From positions 1 through 27,753 of IMG/VR virus record IMGVR_UViG_3300027901_000026: a DNA stretch of 27,753 nt. The stretch is one strand, 5' to 3'. The notes beneath the pieces were generated by a model, which saw nothing but the letters and a program-made list of their open reading frames with translations, did no database searches and was not told where the DNA came from. Below are positions 1,524 through 27,587 of the stretch, one piece after another. Made by a program: the position numbers and the translations under genes. How positions within the stretch are numbered: the first letter of the stretch is position 1; the number at the start of each line of letters is the position of its first letter. Source of the stretch: a virus.

Positions 1524-2741
1524 TTACGGAAGGTTGACTACCTTAATGTACTGATAGTAGTTCTGTGAACCGAATAGCAAGTCAGTGGTACAACCACCGT
1601 AAATTGCATATCTGCTCATCAAACCTACTGTTGGTTGGAATGAGTCTTCAAAGGTTGCTCTCATTGCAAGTAATTGGATATAAGGTAGATAGATAACACC
1701 AGCATCGTACTCAGACGGACCCTTGTAACCTACGATAACTTCGTCTTGGGTTGCAAAGGTATCACGGTAAACAGTGATTCTACCGTCAAGAGAACCAAGT
1801 CTTGCTACTCCGGTTGGAGCAGTGCTTGCATCACCAGGAACAGGAGCAATGGTGAAGGAAGGCATGGTTTCAAAAGCAACTGCTACGTTTGGTGAAACGA
1901 TTATAAAGTTACCGGAACCACGTCTAGTGTTAATTGCAATTTGGTTAGTCTTTCTGATAACCAAATTCCAGAGGTTTCTGTATTTCTCAGCTTCCCACCT
2001 ACCGTCAACTGTTACAGTATCATTGTAATCAAATTTTGCTGAAGTTGCAACGGATGCAGTTGCAGCACATCTGATTTCATAGATCAATTCACGGTCAATT
2101 TCCTGGGTGATTTCGTAAGCCAAGATATCCATCATTTCCTCTTCGATATCGAGACCATGCATAGCCTTGAGGTCTTGTGCAACTTCAAGGGACCATCTTG
2201 ATCTCAACTTACGAGTTTTTGCTTCTACCTGTTTCTTTTCAACTGTCATGTTGACTTCTTTGATAGCTGTACCAGCACCAATACCAAGACCTTGCCCTTG
2301 ATCCCAAGGGGTAGTCATGTTGGAGCCTAGAGCTTCACCAGCAGTTGTTACAACTGAACCAGTGTAAGTTCTATCAATGGTATTGTACCCTAGTTCCACA
2401 CCAGGAGGTGAAGGTGTACCTGCATAGGTTTGACCTGCTCTGAATCTCAAAGCAAATGCCAATCCAACAGGACCAGTCAATGGCTGAACACCCACGATTT
2501 CATGAGCTACTAACTCAGGAAATGTACGTCTTACCATAGGTACTGCAATTTTATAGAAGTCACCAGAAGTAGCATAAGGACCACTTCTTGCAAGGGAACC
2601 TTCAGTATAACTTGATTCCATCAAGTAGTTATGTTCGTTCTCAAGCATAACAGCAGTAGACTTCATAACTTTAGGGTTAGTAATCTTCTTGCCCTCATTG
2701 AGAACTTCTTCCCACTTTTTAACTAATTCTTTTACGTTCAT
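1524..2741 (-). CDS. 23: major capsid protein, T4 gp23-like
   Basis: This 405-aa protein forms the head shell. T4 gp23 signatures are clear: VGVQPLTGPVGLAFALR (83-99) and SRWSLEVAQDLKAMHGLD (181-198) followed by an ITQEIDRELI-type helix. T4 gp23 is 521 aa, so this is a short version. The N-terminus MNVKELVKKWEEVLNEG is amphipathic and ends in LNE|G (after residue 16), a candidate gp21-type cleavage site much closer to the N-terminus than T4's (after residue 65). The gene follows the scaffold gene by 22 nt, with a strong GGAGG site, and is closed by a terminator at 1465-1498, consistent with a high-output gp22-gp23 unit. Confidence 0.96.
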   Translation of the reverse strand: MNVKELVKKWEEVLNEGKKITNPKVMKSTAVMLENEHNYLMESSYTEGSLARSGPYATSGDFYKIAVPMVRRTFPELVAHEIVGVQPLTGPVGLAFALRFRAGQTYAGTPSPPGVELGYNTIDRTYTGSVVTTAGEALGSNMTTPWDQGQGLGIGAGTAIKEVNMTVEKKQVEAKTRKLRSRWSLEVAQDLKAMHGLDIEEEMMDILAYEITQEIDRELIYEIRCAATASVATSAKFDYNDTVTVDGRWEAEKYRNLWNLVIRKTNQIAINTRRGSGNFIIVSPNVAVAFETMPSFTIAPVPGDASTAPTGVARLGSLDGRITVYRDTFATQDEVIVGYKGPSEYDAGVIYLPYIQLLAMRATFEDSFQPTVGLMSRYAIYGGCTTDLLFGSQNYYQYIKVVNLP

Positions 2742-2763: not shown

Positions 2764-3585
2764 TTACCACTTCTTACTTCTTAGTACTTCTAGATACTCC
2801 TTAAATGGAGAATCTTTTGTTTCTTCTTCCTCATTGAGAAGTTGTTTATCATCTTCTACTTCAGAGTGACCTTCTTCCATTTCTTCTTCTTCCTCTTCCT
2901 CTTCCTCTTCGTCACCCTCTTTCTTCTTTTTCTTTTTCTTCTTCATTTCTTCGTCTTCTTCTTCTTCCTCTTCTTGCTCTTGAAGTCGAATAGACTCAAC
3001 AATGAGGTCGAACTTTCTGTCTATCTCTTCAAGATCAGTGATGCCTTCCATTAGATCATGAACTCTGAGCTTTTGGGTTTCTGTGAGTCCATCACTTTTC
3101 TTTCTGAGATACATTTGAGCTTCAAGCTCTTGTTGTTTCATTTCAAGATCCAACTTGTCTGCCATAAGTTGATCAATCTCACCACGATGCTTAATGATCT
3201 CTTCTTTAGCTTCTCTCAAGAGATCCTTAATTTCTGCATCAAGGAGACCTTCATCAATGGACAGTCTTAGCTTGAATTGCTCAATTAGGTCACTATAGAG
3301 TTCACCTTTACGTGCAAACTCCATAACCTTGTCAGGAATGACAAGCTCTTCTTCCAAGATGCTGTCAACAAAATTGGAGAACTTTGATGTGATGTCTTTT
3401 TTATATTCATCAAATCTTTCTTCCATTTCTGCAATCAATTGGTCTTTCTGTTCTGAAAGCTTTTCATCAACCTGTTCTGTTGCTCTAGCTTCAATAACAG
3501 TTTCAAGACCTTGTTTGATTTCATCTTGTTTACCTTCTTCAAGCTTGTCAACCCCTAGCATTTCAAGAATTTTCTTTAGATCCAT
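2764..3585 (-). CDS. 22: prohead core scaffolding protein, T4 gp22-like
   Basis: The 273-aa product is almost entirely helical and charged, as expected for the internal scaffold around which the prohead assembles and which the gp21 protease later degrades. Its place directly upstream of gp23 and downstream of gp21 is the T4 order. Residues about 203-240 form an extreme low-complexity stretch of runs of Glu and Lys. Several (L/I)xE tripeptides (for example LLNE near the C-terminus, LLRE in the middle) could be protease sites. The assignment rests on context and composition more than on residue identity. Confidence 0.85.
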   Translation of the reverse strand: MDLKKILEMLGVDKLEEGKQDEIKQGLETVIEARATEQVDEKLSEQKDQLIAEMEERFDEYKKDITSKFSNFVDSILEEELVIPDKVMEFARKGELYSDLIEQFKLRLSIDEGLLDAEIKDLLREAKEEIIKHRGEIDQLMADKLDLEMKQQELEAQMYLRKKSDGLTETQKLRVHDLMEGITDLEEIDRKFDLIVESIRLQEQEEEEEEDEEMKKKKKKKKEGDEEEEEEEEEEMEEGHSEVEDDKQLLNEEEETKDSPFKEYLEVLRSKKW

Positions 3586-3732: not shown

Positions 3733-4485
3733 TTATGCTGGTTCTGTATCATAGCTTCCACACTTAGGGCATTTAACTTCAAATGTTTTGGCACCTATCT
3801 TTTTCTGGAACCTCTTTCCACATTCCATGCATTGCATTGGTGTTTTTTGTTCATTTAATTGATCAAGCCATTTACCGAAATATTCTTGTCTTCGTAACAT
3901 ATCTTCTTGGATCTTATCTATTTCTTCCTCTTCCATATCTTCAGTTTTTCTATCAGGACAGAAACAATGATCAGGATATTGCCATGTCTGTGCTTCATAT
4001 ATACCGTTAACCCATGATGGATTATTTGAAGGATCTGTTACTAAATCCCATGTGATTAGTTTATAATCTTCATTAACATATCCATCTTCAGCAACAGTTC
4101 CTAGACCCCTGCTGGAAATACCAAGGTTACCGTTCCTAACAAGAGTTTTTGCAATATTGCCTAAAGGTGTATCAAGGATTTTAGAACGTCCATAGAGATC
4201 ATTGCCTTTCCATTCTAGAGATTCGGTTAGAATAGCTATCCTTTCTGGATTGATCTCAGGGGAAGGTGGGTGACCTAATTCTCCCCAACAAGATCCTCTT
4301 GAAACCTTCTCCATTATTTTATCAACTTCTCTTTCCAGTAAATCCTTTTTGTATTTTCTGCTGTTATTATTTTCAATCTCTGCACTACTGAAAATACCAA
4401 CAACAAACATGTCTTTAGATCTATTGCCTTCTTGCACAGCAATATCATGACTCATTTCTGTAATAAGCTTGAATTGTTTGTTCAT
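3733..4485 (-). CDS. 21: prohead maturation protease, T4 gp21-like, with C-terminal zinc ribbon
   Basis: This 250-aa serine protease would cleave scaffold, capsid and internal proteins during head maturation. The catalytic blocks are WGELGHP (67-73, His72) and LGISSRGLGTV (121-131, Ser124/125), as in T4 gp21 (212 aa). After a helical linker the protein gains an extra C-terminal zinc ribbon, CxxC (219, 222) and CxxC (239, 242). A gp21-type site, QLNE|Q (after 212), lies just before the ribbon, so self-cleavage could shed it. The gene lies between the acidic core gene and the scaffold gene and ends at its own terminator. The protease call is firm; the ribbon's role and release are inference. 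Confidence 0.93.
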   Translation of the reverse strand: MNKQFKLITEMSHDIAVQEGNRSKDMFVVGIFSSAEIENNNSRKYKKDLLEREVDKIMEKVSRGSCWGELGHPPSPEINPERIAILTESLEWKGNDLYGRSKILDTPLGNIAKTLVRNGNLGISSRGLGTVAEDGYVNEDYKLITWDLVTDPSNNPSWVNGIYEAQTWQYPDHCFCPDRKTEDMEEEEIDKIQEDMLRRQEYFGKWLDQLNEQKTPMQCMECGKRFQKKIGAKTFEVKCPKCGSYDTEPA

Positions 4486-4845: not shown

Positions 4846-5550
4846 TTAGAGATTTCTCTTATTTCCTATTGCATCACCATAAGCAGTTGCCATAGGTAAT
4901 AACTTGGCAATGGGCAATTTTATCTTTAATGCATTAACCTTACAACCAGTGCAAGCTATTAATCCACTTAGAAATCTATGGTGACCGTCAATAATAAAGT
5001 TATCTTCACTAATAACAAAGAATGATTTTTCGGTAATAAATTCATTAGATGCTTTAACACCGAATTGTGCAATTGCTCCCATTGACTTGTCATAGTAAAC
5101 TTGTCTTTGAATTGGTTTTAGTTTACTTATAGGAACCTGTGTAATTCTAACATCTATTATATCATCTTTTAAAGATCCATCTCTTAATCCTAATTCTAAC
5201 CATTTTTTAGCAGCAAGTCCAGATAGTCCGGTAGGAAATGGATTATGTTTTACTAAAGGATCTTTTGCCAGTGGCTTATTGATGTCAATTGTTCCTTTCT
5301 CTAGCCTAGCTTTAAACTTGTCAACATCTTTATCATCAATAACAGGCATGTCCTTTCTTTGGGTTTTGCCAATTTTAAAAATGCTTTGTGCCTTTTTAAA
5401 ATTTGTATCAAAGTCAGGAATTTCCTTATCAAGATCTAATCCTTTTTTCTCAGCAAACTTTCTTGCTTCTTCAAGACTGATCTTATCTACTTCCATTTTT
5501 CCTGCTGCTTGTCCACCTGCTTGCTCTGTTAGAAATTTTTTAAATCTCAT
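4846..5550 (-). CDS. ParB/sulfiredoxin-fold protein with capsid-targeting-like leader
   Basis: The 234-aa protein starts MRFKKFLTE|Q, a leader resembling the T4 internal-protein capsid-targeting sequence with a (L)xE cleavage site after residue 9. The C-terminal third (about 140-225) has ParB-N-like features: ISKLKPIQRQ, a strand-rich segment, and FIIDGHHRFLSGL (185-197), in which DGHHR is the hallmark nucleotide/DNA-binding box. ParB-like domains include CTPases, nucleases and kinases; which applies here cannot be told. The middle region is unrecognised. The start overlaps the portal stop (TAATG), so it is co-translated with head genes. The fold assignment is moderately strong; packaging into the head is inferred. 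Confidence 0.72.
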   Translation of the reverse strand: MRFKKFLTEQAGGQAAGKMEVDKISLEEARKFAEKKGLDLDKEIPDFDTNFKKAQSIFKIGKTQRKDMPVIDDKDVDKFKARLEKGTIDINKPLAKDPLVKHNPFPTGLSGLAAKKWLELGLRDGSLKDDIIDVRITQVPISKLKPIQRQVYYDKSMGAIAQFGVKASNEFITEKSFFVISEDNFIIDGHHRFLSGLIACTGCKVNALKIKLPIAKLLPMATAYGDAIGNKRNL

Positions 5551-10600: not shown

Positions 10601-10843
10601 TTAATCCTTTATTTTTCTACCAACAGCAATAACAGCAGTTTGTACTGTATCTGCTATTTTTTTCAAACCATCTTCAAGATTTTTTAATTCTTTACCTGCA
10701 ATTGCTTTAGATGTTTTTCTTAAATTTTTTACATCTGTGGTAGCACTATTAATATTTGTAGCTATTTTTTTTAAATTGCTCCAGACACCTTTTAACTCTT
10801 GATTGGTTTGTTCTTGTAATAAGTATTCTTCTAGTTTTGTCAT
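10601..10843 (-). CDS. small helical protein with capsid-targeting-like leader
   Basis: I place the start at ATG 10843 (MTKLEEYLLQEQ), which forms a TAATG overlap with the upstream stop; an in-frame ATG 21 nt earlier lies inside the neighbour. The 80-aa protein begins with an amphipathic leader ending LLQE|Q (after residue 11), like the leaders of the accessory proteins elsewhere in this window. The remainder is helical (IATNINSATTDVKNLRK). It may be an internal head protein encoded among tail-type genes. Confidence 0.65.
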   Translation of the reverse strand: MTKLEEYLLQEQTNQELKGVWSNLKKIATNINSATTDVKNLRKTSKAIAGKELKNLEDGLKKIADTVQTAVIAVGRKIKD

Positions 10844-15820: not shown

Positions 15821-16576
15821 TTAGATCTTGTAGCCAGTAGATTTGATCATAGCTTTTAATTCGGCTTTGATCTTTTTTGCTTTATCTCCCCTCCAACTTG
15901 AAGCATTGCTAAGAAAATATAATACAACTGATTTTGCTGAATCCATGTAATACATATCAGTTATCTTATCTAATGAATACATTGCTTCAAGATAAGGCTT
16001 TGCAGCAAAGTTAACATTTTTCCAATCCATTTTAATTTCTTTTGCAATTTGCCATAATGGTCTATGTGCTTCTGATAAAGACTCTGCCATTTTACTTTTC
16101 TTTTTCTTTATGATTTCCCTTTTTACTTTTTCAGGAAGCTTGTCTGCTTGAGCCTTTGTGAGATATCTTCTTTCATCATCTCCCATTCCATGTGCTTTAC
16201 CACAAGTCTCATCAATATCATCTGATTCTTTCATGAAATCATATTCCTGATTCTTGTAGTCAACTTCAAATTGCATTGCATATCTCATAGCAAGCTTTTC
16301 TCTGTCTTTAGTTGGAAACATAGTTGCTGGCTTGTCTCCTGGACTACCAAACTCTTTCACGTATTTCTTGGCACCTGCATCTAACAAATACATGAATAGC
16401 TTTGCAGCAAGCTTTCTATCGTATATTCCTTTCTTCATCTTCTTTGTGAGATTCTTAAGTTGAGGAATAAACATCTGCTTGTATAGCTGATAGTCATTAT
16501 CAATATATAATTCCAATTCTCTCATTTCCGGTGTTAGTTCACCTTCATTAAGGCTTACAAACTCTCTAAATTTCAT
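15821..16576 (-). CDS. two-domain candidate internal head protein with N-terminal and internal processing sites
   Basis: The leader MKFREFVSLNE|G is followed by a helical domain (ELYIDNDYQLYKQMFIP, KMKKGIYDRKLAAKLFMYLLDAGAKKYVKEFG) that I have the impression recurs in other large T4-like phages. A Lys-rich linker then carries a second site, SLSE|A (about residue 169), followed by a distinct domain (PLWQIAKEIKMDWKNVNFAAKPYLEAMYSL to LSNASSWRGDKAKKI). Cleavage at both sites would yield two mature proteins. There is no catalytic motif. The two-domain reading is strong; processing is inferred. Confidence 0.75.
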   Translation of the reverse strand: MKFREFVSLNEGELTPEMRELELYIDNDYQLYKQMFIPQLKNLTKKMKKGIYDRKLAAKLFMYLLDAGAKKYVKEFGSPGDKPATMFPTKDREKLAMRYAMQFEVDYKNQEYDFMKESDDIDETCGKAHGMGDDERRYLTKAQADKLPEKVKREIIKKKKSKMAESLSEAHRPLWQIAKEIKMDWKNVNFAAKPYLEAMYSLDKITDMYYMDSAKSVVLYFLSNASSWRGDKAKKIKAELKAMIKSTGYKI

Positions 16577-16588
16577 CTGTCTTCTCCT

Positions 16589-17431
16589 TTATATTTTACC
16601 GATATTTCTAGAAATAGATCTTGTAAGAGCTTCTGCTTCTTGTTTAGTTAATATAACTTCACTTTTTCCTGCACGAACAGTAACTAGCCCCTTTCCAAAA
16701 TATACACTTTTTGTTCCAGAACTATTCAGTGTATCTCCTTTCATTGTTTCTTCTTTTGCTTTCATAAGAGCCTTGTGATAACTTGCTATCTTTCCAGATG
16801 GTGGAGAAGAAGCACCTTTATGTGTGGGGTGTTTACCTTCGTCAATAGATTCTTTCTTCAATTGCTCTTGACATTTCAGTGCAGCTTTTTTATATGTACT
16901 TGCAATATGCATCCAATGAGCTACATCTGGATTTTCTTTTGCTTTCTTTTTCCATTGAGCAGTTAATTTTTCTGGATCTGTTAATACAACTGCTTCTCTG
17001 AGCTTACTTTCTTTTATACCTCTTTCTTTCATTACCCTTTCCAGATTAGCTAATATGAGTTCCTGTCTCTCTTTATTCACATCAGATATCTTAGGTCTTT
17101 GTAAAACACGTTTTGTTCTTTCGTATGCTTGCTTAATAAACTCATCTGAGTCTTCTGCATAATCAAGATATACATAACCAACATTGGATGGATGTACTCC
17201 ATGTTGTTTTGCTAATTGCTGTGCTTTACCTCTATTTTGTGCAGATCTAATCTTCATATAAAATCCACTTGATTCAACTCCCTCTGATATAGGAACACAT
17301 ATTTTTTTCTCCTTGTTCCATTTATATCCTTCAGGACAACCTGCACCAACAACATCAACTGTACCTTGTGCAAGTGGTTGAGCTATATTAGCAGTTGTTG
17401 TAGTTTCCTCTAACCATTTTTCAAATTTCAT
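16589..17431 (-). CDS. candidate internal head protein with CPxGxxW...C motif
   Basis: The 280-aa protein starts MKFEKWLEE|T (leader). Residues 32-45 form CPEGYKWNKEKKIC (C-x12-C), a motif found in three other proteins of this window. A domain with SAQNRGKAQQLAKQHGVHP and YVYLDYAEDSDEFIKQAYERTKR follows, then an internal site SKLRE|A, a helical section (TAQWKKKAKENPDVAHWMHIA) and a C-terminal segment with VYFGKGLVTVRAGKSEVIL. It overlaps its upstream neighbour by 11 nt. Function is unknown; the multi-part build suggests a cleaved precursor. Confidence 0.72.
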   Translation of the reverse strand: MKFEKWLEETTTTANIAQPLAQGTVDVVGAGCPEGYKWNKEKKICVPISEGVESSGFYMKIRSAQNRGKAQQLAKQHGVHPSNVGYVYLDYAEDSDEFIKQAYERTKRVLQRPKISDVNKERQELILANLERVMKERGIKESKLREAVVLTDPEKLTAQWKKKAKENPDVAHWMHIASTYKKAALKCQEQLKKESIDEGKHPTHKGASSPPSGKIASYHKALMKAKEETMKGDTLNSSGTKSVYFGKGLVTVRAGKSEVILTKQEAEALTRSISRNIGKI

Positions 17432-17966
17432 ATTTCTTCTCCCCTTCCTTTTGATAAGAAGATCTGCTATATTGTCTGTCTATCTTAATTAATATATCTT
17501 CCTTAACAACACCTTCTCCACCTTCTTCCTTTTCAATATCTTCAATGCCATGCATTGTTGCTTCAGGATCTTTATCTCTTTCTATATTAATTTTTGCCAT
17601 TGGTTTAGTAGGATCTTCTCTCTTACGAGAATACCTAAAAATTCTTTTTCCGAAATGTGATTTTAAAACTTTATCATCTTCAAGAGATGGATGATAGTTT
17701 CCTATAAACTCCATTCCCTTAGCTCTTTCAAACTCATCCCACTGCCACTCATCTTTGGGAAAGAAATTTCTATATGCACCACCAGGAGCATTAATTGTTT
17801 GTTTTGTATATGGTCTGCCAATTAATATATTACCAGTAGGATGATCATCATCACTAGCAGTGGCACCATATTCTATTCCCTTATTTATAAAAATACCTGT
17901 ATCTGGAAGACCTCCGGTAATAGTTGCTTCATTAAGAAATCTTTCTAGTTTTCTTAAAATGTTCAT
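17421..17966 (-). CDS. candidate internal head protein with leader LNE|A
   Basis: The 181-aa product begins MNILRKLERFLNE|A, an amphipathic helix ending in the gp21-type site, followed by a Gly/Thr-rich mature N-terminus. The rest is mostly hydrophilic with a possible beta core (GNILIGRPYTKQTINAPGG, FEFIGNYHP-like strand) and a basic-acidic tail. ATGA overlap with the gene upstream and an 11-nt overlap with the gene downstream indicate co-translation. No family recognised. Confidence 0.7.
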   Translation of the reverse strand: MNILRKLERFLNEATITGGLPDTGIFINKGIEYGATASDDDHPTGNILIGRPYTKQTINAPGGAYRNFFPKDEWQWDEFERAKGMEFIGNYHPSLEDDKVLKSHFGKRIFRYSRKREDPTKPMAKINIERDKDPEATMHGIEDIEKEEGGEGVVKEDILIKIDRQYSRSSYQKEGEKKYEI

Positions 17967-19352: not shown

Positions 19353-19462
19353 AGGTGGTCTTCCTCACCTTTAACAAATAAGAACCATGAGTCGTTTCCT
19401 TTGTGTGTGGAAACATTGACACCATTTATAAATATACAAGAGAGGGTTAGAGAAGACCACCT
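19353..19462 (+). repeat. long-range inverted repeat in the rightward leader
   Basis: AGGTGGTCTTC (19353-19363) and its exact reverse complement GAAGACCACCT (19452-19462) are 88 nt apart; the match continues imperfectly for about 8 more bases on the inner side. Inside lies a small hairpin (GTTTCC, 19394-19399, with GGAAAC, 19409-19414) and the proximal promoter at 19427-19434. The arms could pair only in RNA started at the distal promoter, or form a protein-binding pair on DNA. The intergenic region 19215-19495 holds no convincing gene. Confidence 0.6.
19427..19434 (+). promoter_or_regulatory. T4-late-type promoter, proximal, rightward operon
   Basis: The plus strand reads TATAAATA 61 nt before the ATG at 19496. 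This spacing matches the leftward promoter on the other side, so it is the likeliest start for the rightward operon. Confidence 0.65.
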
Positions 19463-19495: not shown

Positions 19496-20698
19496 ATGTC
19501 TGTAATTAACAAAATTGATTTTCTTCTTGGTGATGGATTTCTCAGGGAAGCAACTGAATTTCAAAAATTCTTTAAGAAGAAACTAAAGCAGTATGGTGCA
19601 AATTCACCTGCTGATCTACCAAACGATAAGAAGAAAAAATTCTTCGATGAGGTAGATAGAGAATGGAAAGGCAAGAATGAAAGTCTTTCAGAAGCAACCT
19701 TACAATCCATCATGATGCAGTTTGGTCCTTATGCTGCTGCAAAGAAAATGGGTATCTTGAATCCTAAGCAGTCTGGTCCTGATACAGGTGTTGTTAAAGC
19801 ATATCCTGGATCTGGAAAAGAGCATTTTCATCCAGACAAACAAGATACAAAAATTCCTACCAAAGACAAGGGTACTGTAAAAAGCTATCCTGGATCTGGC
19901 AAGGAACATTACCATCCCGACACCCAAGACACAAAAATCCCCACCAAAGACTCCGGTGTTGTAAAATCCTTTCCTGGTGGTGGAAAAGAACATTTCCATC
20001 CTGATAAGCAAGATGAAAAAATTCCCACAAAAGACAAGGGAGTTTTGAAATCTTATCCTGGATCTGGTAAGGAACATTTTCATCCTGACAAACAAGATGA
20101 TAAGATCCCTACTAAGGATAAAGGCACTGTAAAGTCTTATCCTGGATCTGGTAAGGAACATTTTCATCCTGAAACACAGGATACAAAAATTCCTACTGCT
20201 GATAAAGGTACTGTTAAGGGATTTCCAGGAGACCATCTGGTAAGACATAAGGGAAAAGGTCTTATGGGATTCAAACAAATGTCTGAGCAGGAAGATTTAG
20301 AGGATATCCAAGATAAATTCGGGCCAATGAAGTATGCAGAAGAAAAGGGACTAGTTGACAAGAAAAAGAAAAAGAAAAAGAATGCTGTGGATGATGTTAT
20401 GAAAGATGAAAATAAAAATATCTTTGAAGCATATCAAAGAAGCATCCTTGTAACAAATGAAGAATGGCTTGAATATGAAAAAGCCTATGGTGAAGTACTA
20501 GACGAAAAGTGGGCAAAGAAAGTTAAGATAGAAAAAACCGGAGAACATGCTGGAAAATCTGTCGAACAGTTGAAGAAAGAAATTGAAGCACTAAAAGGCA
20601 AACCTGGAAACAAAGAGAAGATGGGTGAATTGCTCTTTGCATTGAGATCAAAGACAGGATGGAAGAAAGGCAAGGGTGCTGCTGGTCTAGGTGGTTAA
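19496..20698 (+). CDS. modular candidate internal head protein with six-fold His/Pro repeat
   Basis: The 400-aa product is modular. Leader: MSVINKIDFLLGDGFLRE|A (18 aa). Domain A (20-60): EFQKFFKKKLKQYGANSPADL followed by KKKKFFDEVDREW, which looks like a phage-type helical module. Site SLSE|A (66) precedes LQSIMMQFGPYAAAKKMGI. Five 28-residue repeats (96-235) and a partial sixth follow, each with YPGSGKEHFHPDKQD then KIPT. Site MSE|Q (264) precedes IQDKFGPMKYAEEKGLVDKK, a second copy of the FGP...GL block. The C-domain (338-400, after VLDE) includes SVEQLKKEIEALK and ELLFALRSKTGWKKG. AGGAGG precedes the ATG. The HxH pairs might bind metal. I infer a multi-cleavage precursor; function unknown. 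Confidence 0.8.
   Translation: MSVINKIDFLLGDGFLREATEFQKFFKKKLKQYGANSPADLPNDKKKKFFDEVDREWKGKNESLSEATLQSIMMQFGPYAAAKKMGILNPKQSGPDTGVVKAYPGSGKEHFHPDKQDTKIPTKDKGTVKSYPGSGKEHYHPDTQDTKIPTKDSGVVKSFPGGGKEHFHPDKQDEKIPTKDKGVLKSYPGSGKEHFHPDKQDDKIPTKDKGTVKSYPGSGKEHFHPETQDTKIPTADKGTVKGFPGDHLVRHKGKGLMGFKQMSEQEDLEDIQDKFGPMKYAEEKGLVDKKKKKKKNAVDDVMKDENKNIFEAYQRSILVTNEEWLEYEKAYGEVLDEKWAKKVKIEKTGEHAGKSVEQLKKEIEALKGKPGNKEKMGELLFALRSKTGWKKGKGAAGLGG
19781..20236 (+). repeat. 84-nt tandem coding repeat, five full copies plus a partial
   Basis: Full copies start at 19781, 19865, 19949, 20033 and 20117; a degenerate copy starts at 20201. Each encodes 28 residues built on D(K/S/T)G-VK-(S/A)(Y/F)PG-GKEH(F/Y)HP-QD-KIPT. 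Copies differ at many third codon positions (for example ATTCCTACC against ATCCCCACC) while the protein is kept, pointing to selection on the protein rather than recent DNA expansion. Confidence 0.95.
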
Positions 20699-20716
20699 TC
20701 CATAAGGAGGAATCAC

Positions 20717-20902
20717 TTGAACAAACTTGAAATGGTCTGGAAGGAGATTGAGTATACCGATAGTCTTCTCCTAGAGAAGACTTTTACGGAAGAAGAACTT
20801 CTAGATTATCTTTCAGAAAATCCTAAAGAAATCAATAAGTTAGAAGAAGATAACAGATATTCCGATATGATTGCTAAGTTCAAAGAAGGGGGATTATTGT
20901 GA
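20717..20902 (+). CDS. small acidic helical protein, TTG start
   Basis: The 61-aa product (MNKLEMVWKEIEYTDSLLLE...) is helical and acidic. TTG at 20717 is preferred because AAGGAGG lies 6 nt upstream; the next in-frame ATG (20732) is 21 nt from that site. The N-terminus resembles the neighbours' leaders, with LLLE|K near residue 20 as a possible but non-ideal cleavage site. Its stop overlaps the GTG of the next gene (GTGA). Confidence 0.65.
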   Translation: MNKLEMVWKEIEYTDSLLLEKTFTEEELLDYLSENPKEINKLEEDNRYSDMIAKFKEGGLL

Positions 20903-21675
20903 GCAGAGAACAGGATCAAAAATTAGTTAATGCTTATGAACGAATAGTAAAGGGAGAACCACCACAACTTAATGAAGCATCAATTGATGAGTACAAAAAA
21001 TCAATGGATGATATGACAGATAAACTTAGGGCAGCAGATAAACTCTGGTTTAAATTGAAAAAGTCAATAAAAGATGATATAGATATACCTATAAAATCAA
21101 AATATCAAATCCAGAAGTCAATACAAGATGTAGATAGCTCTTGGCATAATGTTTATGCTACTACAAGAAATATTTTTAGTCAATTAAGATTGAATTTAGA
21201 AAGTACAAGTATTGATGAAGCTAAGAAGAGAGAGTTTACAAAAACCCTAGGCAATTGGTTTTCTACAAGGTTTAAGAATATGAAGGGGTCTGTCAAAGAC
21301 CTTGAAGAAGCAATTGCCGAAAAGAATCCAAATGCAATACGTGCAAGCCTTACAGGTATTAAGTCCATAATGACAGTAATGGACCATGCACTTGAAAATA
21401 TAAGTGAGGTAGAAGAAATTGTAGAGCAACTTAATGAAGCTGAAAAGAGATGGACCAAGAATCCATATCAATTTAAAAGAGATATGGCAGAAAATCTAAG
21501 AGAAATTGCAAGGTGGATAGACAATATTCATGTAACAGATAGATATTATCCAGGTGATGTTGATCATAGCCCAAAAGAAAAAGCATATGTTGATAGAGTT
21601 TTCAAACTAATGAGTGATGCTGTTTTCAAACTTGAAACTGCTTTACTACAAGCAAAGAAAATTAGGATGTACTAA
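20899..21675 (+). CDS. helical candidate internal head protein, GTG start
   Basis: The 258-aa protein starts with GTG in a GTGA overlap, so it is translated by coupling. The opening LVNAYERIVKGEPPQLNE|A contains AYERI, shared with the later 334-aa protein, and ends in a gp21-type site after residue 26. Two helical domains follow, separated by a second site, EQLNE|A (about residue 182): the first includes ADKLWFKLKKSIKDDIDIP, the second RDMAENLREIARWIDNIH. Possibly cut into two helical bundles. No family recognised. Confidence 0.72.
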   Translation: MSREQDQKLVNAYERIVKGEPPQLNEASIDEYKKSMDDMTDKLRAADKLWFKLKKSIKDDIDIPIKSKYQIQKSIQDVDSSWHNVYATTRNIFSQLRLNLESTSIDEAKKREFTKTLGNWFSTRFKNMKGSVKDLEEAIAEKNPNAIRASLTGIKSIMTVMDHALENISEVEEIVEQLNEAEKRWTKNPYQFKRDMAENLREIARWIDNIHVTDRYYPGDVDHSPKEKAYVDRVFKLMSDAVFKLETALLQAKKIRMY

Positions 21676-21887
21676 TGATGGATATACTCTTGAGATTAAA
21701 TTTCTTTCTCCAGGAACAAAATGAACGTCCTGACCCTGAAAAAGAAAGAAAGAAAGCAGAAAGAGAAAGAAGAAAAAGACAGGCTGAGACTGTAAGAAGA
21801 AGACTTGAAAGAATGTCTGACAGAATGGAAGCTGAGAGAGATGCAGCAGCACGAAGAGGTTTGCCTGGATTTTATGGAGGGAGATAA
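21675..21887 (+). CDS. small, highly basic protein with leader FLQE|Q
   Basis: The 70-aa product begins MMDILLRLNFFLQE|Q and is then almost entirely Arg/Lys/Glu (KERKKAERERRKRQAET), ending GLPGFYGG. Mature, it would be a charged helix suited to binding DNA or RNA. The start overlaps the previous stop (TAATG) and its end overlaps the next ATG. A DNA-condensing packaged protein is an attractive but unproven reading. Confidence 0.68.
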   Translation: MMDILLRLNFFLQEQNERPDPEKERKKAERERRKRQAETVRRRLERMSDRMEAERDAAARRGLPGFYGGR

Positions 21888-22294
21888 TGGGATTTGCAGG
21901 TGCAATGATGAGAAAGCATAGGGGAGAACCAAAATATGAGATCTTCCATGGTAAACAAAAACAGTCTGATGCATGGGATATAGCAGGTGCTAGAAAATAT
22001 TTGAAGTGGATGGTATCAAAAGGATATACCAATGTAATAGTTAAAGACAAAAAAGGAAAAACATTTATGACTGATAAAGACCTACGAGAATCTAAATTAA
22101 GAACATGGCTAGAAGAGGAAGTTGCTGTATCTGCTGAGAAACGTAATTGGAGACAAATAGAGCCTAAGATGGATAGTGCCATAATGCAGCTTGATGGTGT
22201 TGAAAAACTTGTTGGCAGTAAATTCAGAGGACCAGTAAGAAAAATAGTCAATTCCCTCAAGGCAATAAGAGCAGATATAAGGTTAGCAGATTAA
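21887..22294 (+). CDS. two-part hypothetical protein with internal leader-like site
   Basis: The 135-aa protein has a compact N-terminal domain (YEIFHGKQKQSDAWDIAG, ARKYLKWMVSKGYTNVIV) and, after ESKLRTWLEE|E, a C-terminal helical part (RQIEPKMDSAIMQLDG to NSLKAIRADIRLAD). The ESKLR-type linker also occurs in the leftward 280-aa protein (ESKLREA). This fits domain fusion through a leader. It overlaps both neighbours by 1-4 nt. Confidence 0.65.
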   Translation: MGFAGAMMRKHRGEPKYEIFHGKQKQSDAWDIAGARKYLKWMVSKGYTNVIVKDKKGKTFMTDKDLRESKLRTWLEEEVAVSAEKRNWRQIEPKMDSAIMQLDGVEKLVGSKFRGPVRKIVNSLKAIRADIRLAD

Positions 22295-22707
22295 TGTCAA
22301 GAGTATTAGAACAAATAGATAAAGTTCTAGAGCCTACAGATATGGATGATACACCTGTAGGAATTGATATGGAACAGGCAAGTTTTACATTTGAAGAAAA
22401 ACTCTTTAATAACTTGCTTGATTTTGTTGGCACACTTGAACCAGATCAATTGACTGATGATCAATTATTAGAATTATGGAATATTGTAAACTCTCTTAAT
22501 CCTACTGATGGATTATCAGAGGTTGAAATTTTGGATAGAACCACTCCAGAGCAAAGAAAAAATGCAAGGCTCTATAAAAGAAGAAGCAGAGATAAGATAA
22601 GGGAGTGGAAAAACAAAGTAGGTGAAAAGTTAAGACGTAACCGAAAAAGGGGCAAGGGTGTAAAAGGTGGTATGTTAGGACAATCAAGAAGGAGAGATGT
22701 TGTCTAA
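22294..22707 (+). CDS. candidate packaged protein with basic C-terminal tail
   Basis: The 137-aa product starts MSRVLEQIDKVLEP, matching the leader form LEQIDxxL. The middle is acidic (FEEKLFNNLLDFVGTLEP) and the last ~45 residues are strongly basic (NARLYKRRSRDKIREW, KLRRNRKRGKGVKGG), suggesting nucleic-acid binding. The cleavage site after the leader is LE|P, not the ideal LxE|A. No family recognised. Confidence 0.65.
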   Translation: MSRVLEQIDKVLEPTDMDDTPVGIDMEQASFTFEEKLFNNLLDFVGTLEPDQLTDDQLLELWNIVNSLNPTDGLSEVEILDRTTPEQRKNARLYKRRSRDKIREWKNKVGEKLRRNRKRGKGVKGGMLGQSRRRDVV

Positions 22708-23507
22708 TGGAAGATCAAGTTCTAGATGAAGCAAAGTTTAGAAGAGTTATCAGAGGTGGAAAAGTTAGAAGAAAGCTCTTCTGTCCAGATGGGTTTAAAG
22801 CAGTTGATAACATTTGCCAGAAAATGTCACCATCTGAAAGAATAAAACGTAAGAAGGCAACCAAAAGAGCAGCAAGGAAAAAGAAAGGTGCTGTTCTTGC
22901 AAAAATGCTTAAGAAGAGGTCAAAATCCATGAAAAGAAGAGCAATGCAGATACCCCAACAAGCAAGTCAACCAGGAGGTCAAGTATTCGATAATAAAATT
23001 ATTGATAGACTTGATATGTATCTCAAAGAAGATGCAAGAGGAAAAGTTAAAGTTGGAAAGGTTGTGATTGATACCGATAATGACTTTCAAAGAAGTATTT
23101 TAAATCAATCATATATTGAAACAAAAAGCATGAAAGCAGGATTTGCCGTAGCTCAAGCATTAGGTGCAAAAACCAAACATGGTTCACGTCCTGTTTCTGA
23201 AGAAGATATTCAGAAGATATATCAAGAAAGTAAAAAGTATTGGAAAGATGGTGGAAAATATATTGATGTAGATGGAAAGAAAATTAAGCTTGAATTACAT
23301 TTTACCTCTCATGGTGCATGGGGTAGAGGTGAAGGATGGGCTTATTATGGATCTTACTCATGGGGAGGATGGGTAGGTTCAACTAAAGAATATAAGAATC
23401 CCGATCAGGCAATGACAGAAATTGAAAAAAGAGTAAGAAAAGTCATAAAGACAAAACCTAACCTACGTGGTGAAGATGAGCCTGGATGGGGAAGAAGAGA
23501 AAGATAA
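22707..23507 (+). CDS. basic, two-domain candidate internal head protein
   Basis: The 266-aa protein opens MEDQVLDE|A, then KLFCPDGFKAVDNICQKMS (C26-C37, a short form of the CPxGxxW...C motif) and a very basic helix (RIKRKKATKRAARKKKG, MLKKRSKSMKRRAMQ). Around residue 98 a new leader-like segment, IIDRLDMYLKE|D, begins a second domain with Trp/Gly/Tyr-rich strands (HGAWGRGEGWAYYGSYSWGG). I infer a DNA-binding first half and an unrelated second half, separable by the head protease. Confidence 0.7.
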   Translation: MEDQVLDEAKFRRVIRGGKVRRKLFCPDGFKAVDNICQKMSPSERIKRKKATKRAARKKKGAVLAKMLKKRSKSMKRRAMQIPQQASQPGGQVFDNKIIDRLDMYLKEDARGKVKVGKVVIDTDNDFQRSILNQSYIETKSMKAGFAVAQALGAKTKHGSRPVSEEDIQKIYQESKKYWKDGGKYIDVDGKKIKLELHFTSHGAWGRGEGWAYYGSYSWGGWVGSTKEYKNPDQAMTEIEKRVRKVIKTKPNLRGEDEPGWGRRER

Positions 23508-23520
23508 CGGAGGAAAATAA

Positions 23521-24636
23521 ATGGCACAACAAGGACAAGGGGATATTTTAGCACAAGCTGATGGTTTTTTGGAACCAGCAGGTGTGGATTTTTCATACAA
23601 GACATGGAGAAACTATCCTGTCAGTGATGAGACCATGGATGAAAAATCCAAGAAAGGTGGAGAAAGAGAAAATATAACATATCCAACTATAACTATAAAT
23701 ACACCAACTTCAGCAACAAGTGCAGACAATTATACTTTTTCTGGCAGTGTGAATGATCATAATGCACAAATCCACAGTCTTTCATATGAATTGACTGGTG
23801 GAAACAATAGTAGTGGATTGATAACAAGTGGAAATTTTCTTAGAAGAACTTCCAGGCCATTTGGTGGTACGTGGAGATTGCCTGTTTCACCTATAGCTGT
23901 AGGTCAAACAGTTTTATTTATGAGAGGAAGAAATGTAAAAGGAAGATGGGGTCCGATAAGAGACTCATCAATTACAAGAACACCAACTGCTAGTCCAGTA
24001 ATTCCTTGTGGTTGTGGTGTTTTTGAAGATGTATTTTCTTCTCTTAATGCCAATGACTGGTTGCTGGATGATGTTGCTGGTATGACAGTTTTTGGTGCAA
24101 ATGGATGGGAGCATAACAATAACGAAGATAATTATGCAAGAATAAGAGGTAATGGTGGTGCCGTACCGTGGGTTGTTGGTGGGGATTTTGATATTTGTTG
24201 TGAAGTTGTGATAACTGAAATTCCAGATCATATAACACTTTCACATCTTTACTTTTCTTTAAGTGAGGGTGTCAAAGGTGGTGCTGCTGCAAGTATTAAA
24301 CTAGCAACAGAAACACCAAGCAGTGGAACATTACAATACCAATCTGAAGCTACAAATGGAAATTTTGATAAAGCAAATTTTGGAAGTTTTAGATCAGGTA
24401 CAACACATCTATTGAGATTCACTAGGACTGGAAATACTGTAAAAGCTTTTGTATGGAATGAAGGTTTAGAACAGTGGGATTGGGATGGTGATACTGCTGG
24501 AAATACCTGTGATGGTGTTTTTGATTTAGATCCATATGTTTTGTTAGAATGGAATGATGTTGATCCTGCTACTGGAGATTATCTAAAGGGAGCAGTAAAG
24601 TATTTCTGTATTAACGATGGTACTAAAATTGATTAA
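23521..24636 (+). CDS. beta-sandwich/concanavalin-like protein in the rightward operon
   Basis: The 371-aa protein starts with a variant leader (DILAQADGFLEPAG). About 55-150 looks Ig-like (TITINTPTSATSADNYTFSG). From about 165 a concanavalin A-like (LamG-type) jelly roll is suggested: FEDVFSSLNANDWLL, DFDICCEVVITEIP, HLYFSLSEGVKGGAA, THLLRFTRTGNTVKAFVWNEG. Cys pairs are present (PCGCG, ICCEV). This domain usually binds sugars. GGAGG precedes the ATG. It is either a lectin-like virion protein or a packaged protein; the leader is weak. Confidence 0.6.
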   Translation: MAQQGQGDILAQADGFLEPAGVDFSYKTWRNYPVSDETMDEKSKKGGERENITYPTITINTPTSATSADNYTFSGSVNDHNAQIHSLSYELTGGNNSSGLITSGNFLRRTSRPFGGTWRLPVSPIAVGQTVLFMRGRNVKGRWGPIRDSSITRTPTASPVIPCGCGVFEDVFSSLNANDWLLDDVAGMTVFGANGWEHNNNEDNYARIRGNGGAVPWVVGGDFDICCEVVITEIPDHITLSHLYFSLSEGVKGGAAASIKLATETPSSGTLQYQSEATNGNFDKANFGSFRSGTTHLLRFTRTGNTVKAFVWNEGLEQWDWDGDTAGNTCDGVFDLDPYVLLEWNDVDPATGDYLKGAVKYFCINDGTKID

Positions 24637-24836
24637 TGTATAAATGTTCTATATATGATGATAGGCCACAAATTTGTAAAGATTTTCCAACAGAATTTAC
24701 AGATTTGAAAATCTATCCATCATGTACATATTGGTTCGAAGGTAAGAAACGAAAAGGAGAATGTAGCAGATGTGGGGAGTGTTGTAAGTTAACGAAAATG
24801 TACAAGGATACTTGCCCATATTTGAAAAAGCAATGA
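24636..24836 (+). CDS. YkgJ-like cysteine cluster protein in permuted order
   Basis: The 66-aa product contains the two halves of the YkgJ (zinc/iron-chelating) signature in reverse order. CSIYDDRPQICKDFP (4-18), normally near the C-terminus, comes first; CSRCGECCKLTKMYKDTCPYL, normally N-terminal, follows. Eight Cys in all could bind a metal or Fe-S cluster. The start overlaps the previous stop (TAATG). The frame then meets TGA, but stays open and protein-like for another 38 codons (see next entry). Possible origins are a tandem duplication that lost its outer parts, or a genuine permuted form. Confidence 0.7.
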   Translation: MYKCSIYDDRPQICKDFPTEFTDLKIYPSCTYWFEGKKRKGECSRCGECCKLTKMYKDTCPYLKKQ

Positions 24837-24953
24837 TGTATTTCAAATGTTGATGATGGTGTTAGTGAATTAAGTGAAATGAAACCAAGAATCGTAAACA
24901 TGTTGAAAGAATTTGAACCTCTGGCTAAAGAAGAAAAGGGATGGAAAAAGTGA
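24837..24953 (+). other. open in-frame extension after the YkgJ-like stop
   Basis: Following the TGA at 24834-24836 the same frame reads CISNVDDGVSELSEMKPRIV and then a helical LKEFEPLAKEEKGWKK to TGA at 24951-24953, overlapping the next gene's start. It looks protein-like, and the gap otherwise has no gene. Options are a recent nonsense mutation, UGA readthrough or recoding, or a sequencing error (TGG would restore Trp). UGA clearly serves as a stop elsewhere in the window. Confidence 0.45.
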
Positions 24954-25405
24954 TCAAGAAGCAAATTGATAAAGGTAATAATGTATTTACTCCGAAATTT
25001 CCAGAGAAATATAAAGGCAATTATCCAATTGTATCAAGATCAAATTGGGAATTACAGTTCATGAAGTGGTGTGATAACAATCCCCTTGTAGTAGAATGGT
25101 CGAGTGAGAGTGTTAAAATACCTTACTTTGATCCAACACAACAGAAAAGAAGATTCTATTACCCAGACTTTATGATAAAGGTAATAGATAAAAAGAATAA
25201 TATAGTACCATATATAATAGAGATAAAACCACATAAAGAAACTGTTCCCCCAAAAAGAAGTGGACGTAAAAGCAGGAAGTCAGTGCTATATGAGCAACTA
25301 ACATTTCAAACTAATCAGGCTAAATGGAGGGCAGCACAAGACTTTGCAAATAAAGCTGGAGCTATCTTTAAAATATTTACCGAAAGGGAGTTATTTGGAC
25401 GATGA
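24941..25405 (+). CDS. 4: head completion protein, T4 gp4-like, TnsA/nuclease fold
   Basis: The 154-aa protein matches T4 gp4 (150 aa) in length and pattern: FTPKFPEKYKGNYPIVSRSNWELQFMKWCD, then VVEWSSESVKIPYFDP, YYPDFMIKV, YIIEIKPHKETVPP, and the C-terminal block QTNQAKWRAAQDFANKAGAIFKI. Predicted catalytic residues of the restriction-like fold are Glu37, Asp76 and Glu94-x-Lys96. In T4, gp4 acts late in head completion. It lies in the rightward operon, which supports a head-related role for that operon. The ATG at 24941 overlaps the preceding open frame. Confidence 0.9.
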   Translation: MEKVIKKQIDKGNNVFTPKFPEKYKGNYPIVSRSNWELQFMKWCDNNPLVVEWSSESVKIPYFDPTQQKRRFYYPDFMIKVIDKKNNIVPYIIEIKPHKETVPPKRSGRKSRKSVLYEQLTFQTNQAKWRAAQDFANKAGAIFKIFTERELFGR

Positions 25406-25647
25406 AACTATTAGAAAAAATTGATAAAAAACTAAGATTAGATGAAGCCTATCAGTTAGTAAAAATTGCTGGTCTTCCAGATATGGTTATTAAAGGATCT
25501 ACTGGAGAAGTTAGAACTCTTGTAAAGAAAAAGCTGAAAAACCCAATGGATCTTGAATCAATTGAAATGATTTCCAAGGGTGGAATGCAGAAACTTTTCA
25601 GAGATATTGTAGCAGGTAAAGAAGCAGTAGAGGAAGAACTTATATGA
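25402..25647 (+). CDS. small candidate internal head protein with leader LDE|A
   Basis: The 81-aa product begins MKLLEKIDKKLRLDE|A, the full leader pattern. The mature part has a short strand-helix domain (VKIAGLPDMVIKGSTGEV, RTLVKKKLKNPMDLESIEMI). ATGA-type overlap with gp4 upstream and ATGA overlap downstream. No family recognised. Confidence 0.72.
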   Translation: MKLLEKIDKKLRLDEAYQLVKIAGLPDMVIKGSTGEVRTLVKKKLKNPMDLESIEMISKGGMQKLFRDIVAGKEAVEEELI

Positions 25648-25937
25648 AATTAGATGTATTAGAACAAATTGATATTTACCTTGCTGAACAAGAAAAGAAA
25701 CCACCTGCACTAGTGTATTCCATAGCAGATAAAATGGGAATCTCAAAAGCCAAAGCAGAGCAAAGATGGGAGAAGGCTAGAGATGCAGCAGAAAAGCAAG
25801 GTAAAAAACCATCTGACAAGTTCTTCTGGCCTTATGTTGTTAAAATTTTTAAGACCATGATGGGAACAACTGTAAAGAAAACATGGTCACCGGAAGAAGT
25901 TATGAAAATTGCTAAGAAAGTTTTGGCAAAGGCATAA
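25644..25937 (+). CDS. small helical candidate internal head protein with leader LAE|Q
   Basis: The 97-aa product begins MKLDVLEQIDIYLAE|Q. The mature part reads SIADKMGISKAKAEQRWEKA and then KFFWPYVVKIFKTMMG, a helical module that I have the impression recurs in other large phages, then SPEEVMKIAKKVLAKA. It is basic overall. Overlaps the upstream gene by ATGA. Function is unknown. Confidence 0.75.
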   Translation: MKLDVLEQIDIYLAEQEKKPPALVYSIADKMGISKAKAEQRWEKARDAAEKQGKKPSDKFFWPYVVKIFKTMMGTTVKKTWSPEEVMKIAKKVLAKA

Positions 25938-25947
25938 GGGAGAAACA

Positions 25948-26169
25948 ATGGGCATATTAAAAAGAATTGATGAACAGTTGAATGAAGCTGCAAATCCTCT
26001 TATGAAGATGAAAGCTACTGATGCAGCAGGTAAAATTCTAGGTCTGGATGTTGGTAAGAAAGGATCTCTAAGAGAGATACTTGCCAAGAGTGGTGCAATT
26101 AAAAGTGTTGGAGATTCAATGAAAGTGCTACAACAAATTGCAAAAATAATAATTGATGAAATGGAGTAA
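25948..26169 (+). CDS. small candidate internal head protein with leader LNE|A
   Basis: I start at ATG 25948, which is 5 nt after AAGGGAGAAA and gives MGILKRIDEQLNE|A, an ideal leader; an earlier in-frame ATG (25909) lies inside the preceding gene and lacks a ribosome site. The 73-aa product has a mature helical domain (MKATDAAGKILGLDVGKKGSL to QQIAKIIIDEME). No family recognised. Confidence 0.72.
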   Translation: MGILKRIDEQLNEAANPLMKMKATDAAGKILGLDVGKKGSLREILAKSGAIKSVGDSMKVLQQIAKIIIDEME

Positions 26170-26172
26170 AAG

Positions 26173-27177
26173 ATGAGTCTACTTGAGGAAGTTAGAATAC
26201 TTGAAGCATATGAAAGAATAATTCTCAGAGATGATGTCAGAAGAGAACTAAATGAAATCTTCAAACTAAAGCCAGAAGCAGCAAAGGAAAAGGCAAAACA
26301 AAAGCTAAAACAACTTTCCGATGATATAAAAAAGGCTATAGAAAAACATGGTGAAGATTCTAAGACAGTTCTATATCTAAGAGCTAAAAAGAAACAATTT
26401 GCTCATGCAATGGGAGAAAGTGATGAGATGTGTCCAGAGGGTGAAGTATGGGATGAACAACTTCTGGACTGTGTGACAAAAACCCCAGAGCAACCAGAAG
26501 TGCTAAAAACAGAACAAGAAGAAGAATGCCCAGAAGGTCAACAATGGTGTCCTGTTCAAAAGAAATGTGTTGAACCTGGAAGAGTACAGGCAAGAATGGG
26601 TTTAGGTCCAGGAAGAGCCAGAGGTAGAATGGCAGAAGATGAACAATGCCCTGAAGGTCAAATATGGGATGATGTTCAGGAGAAATGTGTTGAACCTGGA
26701 AAAGATCTAAAAATGGCCGATGAAGGTCTAGCAATTCCCAAAGGTGCTTCAGTAGAAACAATTGCAAATTTCCTTCAGAAAGAATTTGGCATAAGTAAAG
26801 CCAGAGCAATGAAACAAGCAAAAGAATATAAGGAAAAGATCAAAACAAAAGGGTTCCATCATTTTGAAAGTGAAGAACTATCTGAAGCACAAATGAAAAA
26901 GAAATATGGTGGTAAAGATCTTAAATTCCGTTTTCATTATGGTATGGATTTAAGTGAATTAATCAATCTGGTAAGACATAAAGTTTTTGAGGAACTTACC
27001 AGACCTGGAATCCCTACAGATCCTAAAAATAAAACACACTACAATAAAGTGTTTACATCAGTAATGAATGAAGTACAATGGCAACTTGACAATAGAACAC
27101 AAGTAGCATTAAAAGATATTAGAAAGGTACTTCCAGAAATAGTTATAGATGCATTAACAATACCAGAGGTGAAATAA
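26173..27177 (+). CDS. candidate internal head protein with three CPEGxxW...C motifs
   Basis: The 334-aa protein opens MSLLEEVRILEAYERIILRD and has a site RELNE|I near residue 28. A basic helix follows, then three copies of a Cys motif with C-x12-C spacing: CPEGEVWDEQLLDC (87-100), CPEGQQWCPVQKKC (119-132) and CPEGQIWDDVQEKC (159-172). Copies two and three continue into VEPG(R/K). The C-terminal 150 residues form a separate helical domain (ETIANFLQKEFGISKARAMKQ, LSELINLVRHKVFEELTRPG). Single-motif relatives occur elsewhere in the window. Function unknown; the small Cys loops could form disulfides or bind metal. Confidence 0.72.
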   Translation: MSLLEEVRILEAYERIILRDDVRRELNEIFKLKPEAAKEKAKQKLKQLSDDIKKAIEKHGEDSKTVLYLRAKKKQFAHAMGESDEMCPEGEVWDEQLLDCVTKTPEQPEVLKTEQEEECPEGQQWCPVQKKCVEPGRVQARMGLGPGRARGRMAEDEQCPEGQIWDDVQEKCVEPGKDLKMADEGLAIPKGASVETIANFLQKEFGISKARAMKQAKEYKEKIKTKGFHHFESEELSEAQMKKKYGGKDLKFRFHYGMDLSELINLVRHKVFEELTRPGIPTDPKNKTHYNKVFTSVMNEVQWQLDNRTQVALKDIRKVLPEIVIDALTIPEVK

Positions 27178-27587
27178 TGAAATTTGAAAGATACTTGCTA
27201 AACGAAGGTTTTTCGGTAAGAGATATATTTAGTGGTGTTCCACAACAAATGATGTCAAAGGTAAAATCAAATCCAGCATTAAAGAACAAGCTCAATAAAG
27301 GTATTACCACTCTTTTGAAGCCAACTTACTTTAATGCCATTCCACTAGATAAAATTTTTGGTGTTCTTAATAAAGAAGGGATAGTAGCTTTACAAGAAGA
27401 CCAAACTGAGTGGAGTGGTCTTTTATTAGGTGGTTCTAAAGAAACTCAACTAGTCACCTTTCACTTAGGATGGAAAGAAACAAAAGACGAAAACAAGAGA
27501 TACCAAGTAATTCCTAATATTGCTTTGCATCTATCTTATTTTAAAATGCCTTCAGGCAAATATGAGGTAATTGCTTATGTCAGTTAA
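27177..27587 (+). CDS. candidate internal head protein with leader MKFERYLLNE|G
   Basis: The 136-aa protein has the same leader class as the leftward 251-aa protein (MKFREFVSLNE|G). After the site a helical part (IFSGVPQQMMSKVKSNPALKN) leads to a mixed domain (FGVLNKEGIVALQEDQTEWSG, LVTFHLGWKETKD, ALHLSYFKMPSGKYEVIAYVS). The 3' end overlaps the next ATG by 11 nt. No family recognised. Confidence 0.72.
   Translation: MKFERYLLNEGFSVRDIFSGVPQQMMSKVKSNPALKNKLNKGITTLLKPTYFNAIPLDKIFGVLNKEGIVALQEDQTEWSGLLLGGSKETQLVTFHLGWKETKDENKRYQVIPNIALHLSYFKMPSGKYEVIAYVS

Follow-up and report, generated by a model that had tools for sequence, protein, structure and literature searches.

The capsid-targeting sequence (CTS) of bacteriophage T4 has long been regarded as serving a handful of small internal proteins. 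The internal proteins of T-even phages are known to be diverse, and only the CTS is conserved among them (PMC3012670). In T4 IPIII, targeting depends on residues 4 and 7 of this sequence and processing on residues 8 and 10; the gp21 cut follows (L/I)xE (PMC9026906). Here we describe a fragment of an uncultured T4-like phage, IMG/VR record IMGVR_UViG_3300027901_000026, positions 1 to 27,753 (27.75 kb, 39 genes counted), referred to below as the window. We found that at least 12 mutually unrelated non-shell proteins of the window begin with a leader of this kind, seven in a rightward operon and five on the minus strand. We consider it very likely that they represent an expanded T4-type CTS system that loads cargo into the prohead, where it is freed by gp21.

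The motif L.E[AGQ] begins within residues 1-24 in 15 of the 39 window genes. Among internal windows of 24 residues, 17 of 295 have it (binomial P = 1.7e-9 and Fisher 1e-7 for the difference), and shuffling of the N-termini of the window genes gave a mean of 1.24 bearers, with a maximum of 7 in 2000 shuffles. An initial annotation had reported the leader in the rightward cluster, where 8 of 14 genes carry this motif, and the seven strong sites that it named are all present in the sequence, at genes 19496, 21675, 22707, 25402, 25644, 25948 and 27177 (genes are called by the first of their coordinates in Table 1). Its proposed comparison with random expectation came out in favor of the motif, as the figures above show, and its description of the bearers as otherwise unrelated agrees with our comparison of the window leader proteins, which showed no homology to one another. 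Among the weaker forms, the one at 22294 stands as a conserved leader, albeit with an E↓P site (the arrow marks the predicted cut), whereas the start of 20899 and 26173 is of another, AYExI type and the case of 23521 is unconvincing, so that two or three weak cases had been overcounted. The leader had also been placed in the rightward operon only. We found it, or its site, in the leftward genes 4846, 10601, 15821, 16589 and 17421 and in the major capsid protein (MCP), which had been overlooked, and LxE sites occur in the MCP, gp22 and gp21 protease of the window. Because the leader is found on the minus strand and in the MCP, it is a feature of the head and structural region of the genome and not of a single operon.

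The conserved positions of the leader, counted from the Glu, are hydrophobic residues at -6 and -3, L or I at -2 and Glu at 0, which are residues 4, 7, 8 and 10 of IPIII. An unconstrained motif search was dropped after it drifted to general N-terminal composition, and patterns controlled by shuffled N-termini were used instead (hydrophobic at -6, aromatic or His at -3, L/I/V at -2, Glu at 0). As a positive control, this pattern retrieved IPII and IPIII, and nothing else, in the 90 kb of T4 that was scanned. Genes for an S77 protease (PF03420) occur in the window, in each of the 11 relatives that were tested first, and in 12 of 17 records with cargo homologues, including all records of 80 kb or more. 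Furthermore, (Y/W/F/H/S)LxE↓(A/S/T/G) is retained near residue 40 in 42 of 60 clade MCPs, in most cases 26-42 residues ahead of a VRR that is itself conserved, so that the likely shell substrate of the protease has the same site as the leaders. T4 gp23 is cut at FLTE↓A, 33 residues before VRR; in the alignment of the 60 clade MCPs the T4 site columns did not align, and the correspondence therefore rests on this spacing. A further LNE↓G at residues 14-17 is present in MCPs of the clade and absent from that of HTVC008M. The earlier proposal of a T4-style CTS cut by gp21 is thus supported, and passes every sequence test that we tried.

A DNA similarity search found no close match to the window in the cultured-phage collection. 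Its MCP is at most about 37% identical to those of cultured phages, HTVC008M being the best, and 56-99% identical to those of 80 IMG/VR loci, among them the relatives G001 (161 kb), G003 and G004 (127 kb each) and G002 (120 kb). Genes matching the leader pattern exceeded the shuffle expectation 5- to 20-fold in the relatives: 30 against 1.6 in G001, 22 against 1.7 in G002, 14 against 0.9 in G005, 12 against 0.9 in G006, 11 against 1.4 in G004, 9 against 1.4 in G003 and 7 against 0.8 in G007. HTVC008M had no leader-pattern genes, which equals its own chance level. We also ran a stricter DNA form of the leader on whole records of nine relatives and of 15 cultured T4-like or giant phages, including T4, KVP40, Aeh1, RB49, S-PM2, P-SSM2, phiM12, Vi01 and phiKZ. 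The relatives gave 25, 10, 2, 5, 5, 8, 5, 3 and 6 matches, each cultured phage gave 0-2, and the reversed pattern gave 0-1 per strand; the set is therefore unusually large, as had been suggested. A ten-residue form finds IPII and IPIII of T4 and a few matches per genome in cultured phages, indicating that cultured T4-like phages do make sparing use of the leader.

When missed starts are included, the leader-bearing open reading frames (ORFs) of at least 50 aa in G001 number 38, of which at least two are chance matches (31223, 154871). Overall, each of the seven relatives has 8 to 38 genes of this kind, with about 1 to 2 expected by chance. One hundred leader proteins, 58 to 875 aa long, fell into 81 families after removal of the leader and had only MxxxxYLxE in common, with Glu at consensus position 9 (E9) in at least 90% of them. 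Third codon positions in the G001 leaders show larger differences than first and second ones (0.41, 0.27, 0.06), as expected if the peptide is selected. These results bear on an origin by chance or composition, in which the short amphipathic, Lys/Arg/Glu-rich N-termini of small phage proteins would often yield LxE. The motif is indeed short, the proteins are rich in Lys and Glu, and the loose form has the internal matches given above. The enrichment within the window (P about 1e-9), the excess over shuffles in relatives, HTVC008M at chance level and the near-empty reversed pattern nevertheless make such an origin next to inconceivable, and we reject it for the set as a whole; the individual weak cases 23521, 20899 and 26173 may be chance.

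Two families, 4846 and 15821, had enough homologues to examine conservation of the site. In an alignment of 17 homologues of 4846, the leaders are mostly unlike in sequence (MRFKKFLTE, MRFKRYIDE, MKTFKEYITE, MNFRAYLLE) but have xE at their end, shortly ahead of the invariant GG with which the conserved domain begins; a few homologues deviate from the leader pattern or lost their ends in the alignment. In 15821, Glu11, the predicted cut, is invariant in 9 of 9 sequences. In both families, then, the predicted site is retained although the sequence of the leader changes. The CCA-adding enzyme of the relatives behaves likewise, starting MRFKRYLAE↓AREMFKEWQ in G001 and MKFLDYISE↓AREMLKDWQ in G002: the leaders differ, the residues after the cut are near-identical, and the PHROG family that the enzyme matches begins roughly 30 residues downstream. 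In the G002 5'-nucleotidase, the family match runs from residue 11, right behind the leader MRLKQYLIE.

In addition to the CCA-adding enzyme, leader proteins of the relatives include a 5'-deoxynucleotidase, a CN-hydrolase, a methyltransferase, an acetyltransferase, an amidoligase-like protein and HAD phosphatases. Scans of the leader proteins of the window and its relatives gave no IPI-III or Alt homology of mature parts among the families shown; what these proteins appear to share with T4 internal proteins is the leader, not the mature part. A PADLOC scan returned isolated hits only, and an anti-defence role is unsupported by annotation.

By analogy with T4, an amphipathic leader of 8-18 residues would dock the protein into the prohead core, where the gp21 (S77) encoded by the phage itself would cut after the Glu of (L/I)xE, as the protease, the site and the MCP suggest, and the cut protein would be freed inside the head, with DNA packaged around it. 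The mature protein may stay in the head, more likely so for single-site proteins. Bearers with one site and a folded domain, such as the ParB-like 4846, would be the most likely retained cargo and may leave with the DNA at infection; the multi-site bearers 19496, 22707 and 15821, and perhaps 26173, resemble core components or polyproteins that are cleaved into several parts. Ejection into the host is plausible by analogy with T4 IPI and Alt (PMC9026906, PMC3012670).

It could be argued that the leader targets proteins to the prohead core and that most bearers are scaffold resembling gp67, gp68 or gp22, chopped by gp21 and expelled, with little or nothing delivered. In agreement with this, modules of core proteins are also present in 19496 and 22707 (phrog_3503; gp67-type and gp22-type matches), several bearers have multiple LxE sites, and the G002 leader operon lies directly before portal-gp67-gp21-gp22-gp23. 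However, many bearers combine a single site with a folded domain or are enzymes (CCA-adding, 5'-nucleotidase, CN-hydrolase, ParB-like), which is unexpected for disposable scaffold, and we regard this explanation as rather unlikely. Since some bearers have core-like modules and others are enzymes, the set is probably mixed, consisting of core components cut into pieces and of cargo keeping one folded domain. We can further suggest, tentatively, that the clade runs a general cargo delivery in which any leader-tagged protein is loaded into the head, so that the virion would deliver tens of proteins, including enzymes of tRNA repair (CCA-adding) and nucleotide metabolism and ParB-like ones, together with the DNA.

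The genomic position of the leader genes is consistent with a role in the head. In G001 they lie at 87-126k, among the genes for sheath, gp15, terL, MCP, gp21, portal and gp4, and the G002 cluster contains gp4, as the window does. None of the identified replication genes (gp43, gp41, gp44, gp46, gp47, UvsX, UvsW) has a real leader. The motif clusters with head genes, and the outcome that the initial annotation had named as speaking against its proposal, an equal frequency in early genes, did not come about. A pattern match on the G002 gp44 homologue was rejected as chance, as it lies inside MIDRRLWTFVYE. The T4-type late promoter element TATAAATA, reported earlier at the start of the rightward operon, was confirmed there at 19427. 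As this octamer also stands upstream of the portal, gp22 and sheath genes of relatives, the operon is probably expressed late.

Several points weigh against a CTS system loading cargo. Docking, cleavage, packaging and ejection of the leader proteins are steps that we infer and that are unproven for these phages, and gene starts came from a home-made caller. LxE sites at domain joints, taken over all proteins, occurred at 106 of 1058 starts against 57 expected; this test was set aside because it is dominated and confounded by the conserved gp22 and MCP families. Some G001 leader genes form two islands, at 49-57k and 140-148k, away from head genes, and in relatives the residue after the Glu is broad (A, S, G or Q in about half, also E, K, V and D), so that some leaders may target without being cut. 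The islands and the broad residue would also suit a leader that serves as a docking helix for a membrane, a replication compartment or a shared chaperone, with LxE incidental and the proteins outside the head. This seems improbable to us, given that the Glu is nearly invariant, that the register equals that of the T4 CTS, and that leader-rich phages encode an S77 protease and similar LxE sites in the MCP. Moreover, the genes that the G001 and G002 islands follow are similar and look lysis-related on inspection by eye, and TATAAATA lies upstream of some island genes of G006 and G001. We therefore retain the T4-type CTS system as the preferred explanation; the features of the window are collected in Table 1.

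Table 1. Promoter element, leader proteins and head genes of the window
Feature	Coordinates	Strand	Basis or remark
Late promoter element TATAAATA	19427..19434	+	T4-type; 61 bp upstream of 19496 ATG
Leader protein, first operon gene, MSVINKIDFLLGDGFLRE↓A	19496..20698	+	45-aa module to LSE↓A (64-67), tandem repeats, gp67-type C-terminal module
Weak candidate, AYERI-type start, LNE↓A at residues 24-27	20899..21675	+	sequence
Leader protein MMDILLRLNFFLQE↓Q, 70 aa, very basic	21675..21887	+	sequence
Leader-like MSRVLEQIDKVLE↓P	22294..22707	+	homologue MYDVLEQVDNFLSE↓P in G002 head operon
MEDQVLDE↓A, shortened leader; residues 3-80 head scaffolding (gp68-like) domain	22707..23507	+	phrog_3503 1.7e-7
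gp4 head completion/closure gene within leader operon	24941..25405	+	phrog_218 1.3e-47
Leader protein MKLLEKIDKKLRLDE↓A	25402..25647	+	sequence
Leader protein MKLDVLEQIDIYLAE↓Q	25644..25937	+	sequence
Leader protein MGILKRIDEQLNE↓A	25948..26169	+	sequence
Weak candidate, AYERI-type start, CPEGxxWxxxxxxC modules, LSE↓A at 236	26173..27177	+	modules common to gp22 scaffold C-terminus
Leader protein MKFERYLLNE↓G	27177..27587	+	sequence
Leader protein MNILRKLERFLNE↓A	17421..17966	-	sequence
Leader protein MKFEKWLEE↓T, further LRE↓A at 144	16589..17431	-	sequence
Leader protein MKFREFVSLNE↓G; LSE↓A at 167	15821..16576	-	phrog_13953 domain (169-245) after LSE↓A
Leader protein MTKLEEYLLQE↓Q	10601..10843	-	real start at 10843
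Leader protein MRFKKFLTE↓Q with ParB/sulfiredoxin-like domain (IIDGHHR)	4846..5550	-	phrog_2859; alignment of 17 homologues
gp21-type prohead protease (Peptidase_S77)	3733..4485	-	PF03420 1.7e-28; phrog_207 1.6e-52
gp22-like scaffold, several LxE sites	2764..3585	-	phrog_237 3.4e-4
MCP gp23, MNVKELVKKWEEVLNE↓G = LNE↓G at 14-17; likely maturation site YLME↓S near residue 42	1524..2741	-	phrog_138 1.2e-92

In the rightward operon, residues 1-62 of 19496 match stand-alone leader proteins starting MRILEKIDNYLSE↓E, residues 20-64 match phrog_28651, and residues 306-399 match core proteins of relatives. At about residues 92-245, five to six tandem units of about 28 residues (KGTVKSYPGSGKEHFHPDTQDTKIPTKD) lie between two LxE sites. 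The family scan gave no families above threshold for 20899, and the E↓P site of 22294 may remain uncut. Homologues of 22707 have full-length leaders (MDIIDKINLFSLDE↓S, MNILEKIDLFLIDE↓G), and the protein itself has a second, internal leader-like stretch, IIDRLDMYLKE, after the gp68-like domain. The gp4 gene, whose presence in the operon is confirmed by its family match, sits among leader genes in G001 and G002 too. Scans for relatives of 17421 and 27177 returned none or one; the called ORF L021_4748, a homologue of 27177, aligns only downstream of the leader.

Cys modules of the form CPxGxxWxxxxxxC recur in leader or leader-like proteins at 16589-17431, 17963-18673, 22707-23507 and 26173-27177, and the copies in 26173 match the C-terminus of the gp22 scaffold in L008. 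A second N-terminal type, (I/V)xxAYExI(L/V), is found in 20899 and 26173 and in the relatives L031, L040 and G006_77081. It is common to core-like proteins and might be another core-docking motif.

The minus strand of the window holds a T4-type head module with MCP gp23, a gp22-like scaffold, the S77/gp21 prohead protease and a portal. Among its leader proteins, 4846 gave ParB N-domains as the best matches in a fold search (Foldseek; prob 0.99, E 0.03). Residues 12-117 of 15821 form a module that is found as a complete stand-alone protein in other phages; in the AlphaFold model, which is good for this module only, residues 1-11 are disordered, 12-117 folded and 118-173 mostly disordered. In marine contigs (L166-L190), stand-alone homologues of the module start MKITKTQLREIIKEEIQLLTE↓; this leader is a different one and likewise has LTE at its end. 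As for gp21 itself, the G003 gene at 107292-108965 on the minus strand (L109:7292-8965:-) carries an intein directly after GELGHPE (PF14890 3.4e-9 and a LAGLIDADG match), and the gp21 frame of G016, the contig of L155, is similarly split. In-frame TGA codons in gp21 and in the 4846 homologue of the L151 contig (G017) suggest that this phage decodes TGA as an amino acid.

Should a CTS indeed be present on dozens of unrelated proteins of uncultured relatives, some of them enzymes, then cargo packaged in the head would have a major role in phage infection, and a predictable one. The leader would then provide a sequence signature for injected anti-defence and take-over proteins in metagenomes, with no need for culturing, and the set would offer a list of natural parts for delivering proteins with phage heads.

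In our reading, the set represents an expanded form of the internal-protein system of T4, seen across a clade whose members are uncultured T4-like phages. Like IPI, IPII, IPIII and Alt of T4, its members have an N-terminal amphipathic leader (9-15 residues) ending in (L/I)xE with hydrophobic residues at -6, -3 and -2, accompanied by an S77 protease, a late-type promoter and otherwise unrelated mature parts (PMC9026906, PMC3012670). T4 has three internal proteins and Alt, whereas we count at least 12 leader proteins within 27.7 kb, and as many as 38 ORFs in the 161-kb relative; unlike the T4 internal proteins, the set includes recognizable enzymes and multi-site proteins, and lies in several clusters. 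The T4 core proteins gp67, gp68 and gp22, which are cut at several LxE sites, resemble some bearers, 22707 having a gp68-like domain and 19496 gp67-type modules. In T4, however, gp67 and gp68 are encoded in the head operon, whereas the core-type modules found here are joined to additional domains and a CTS. The ejection proteins of phiKZ and SPN3US, which are processed by an S80 prohead protease, are likewise a large packaged set (packaging here being putative) with N-terminal propeptides cut after Glu. They differ in their A-X-E or S-X-E type motifs, longer propeptides and paralogous abundant cargo, compared with the short T4-type leaders and mostly unrelated small proteins found here, and the window is not of this giant-phage type (S80, A/S/G-X-E), as its protease is S77 and its leaders have L or I at -2. 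We found no report of an expanded CTS set in metagenomic T4-like phages in the literature, subscription journals not being covered. The leader itself is already known from T4; its scale in this clade, its presence on recognizable enzymes and the fused core-type modules are new.

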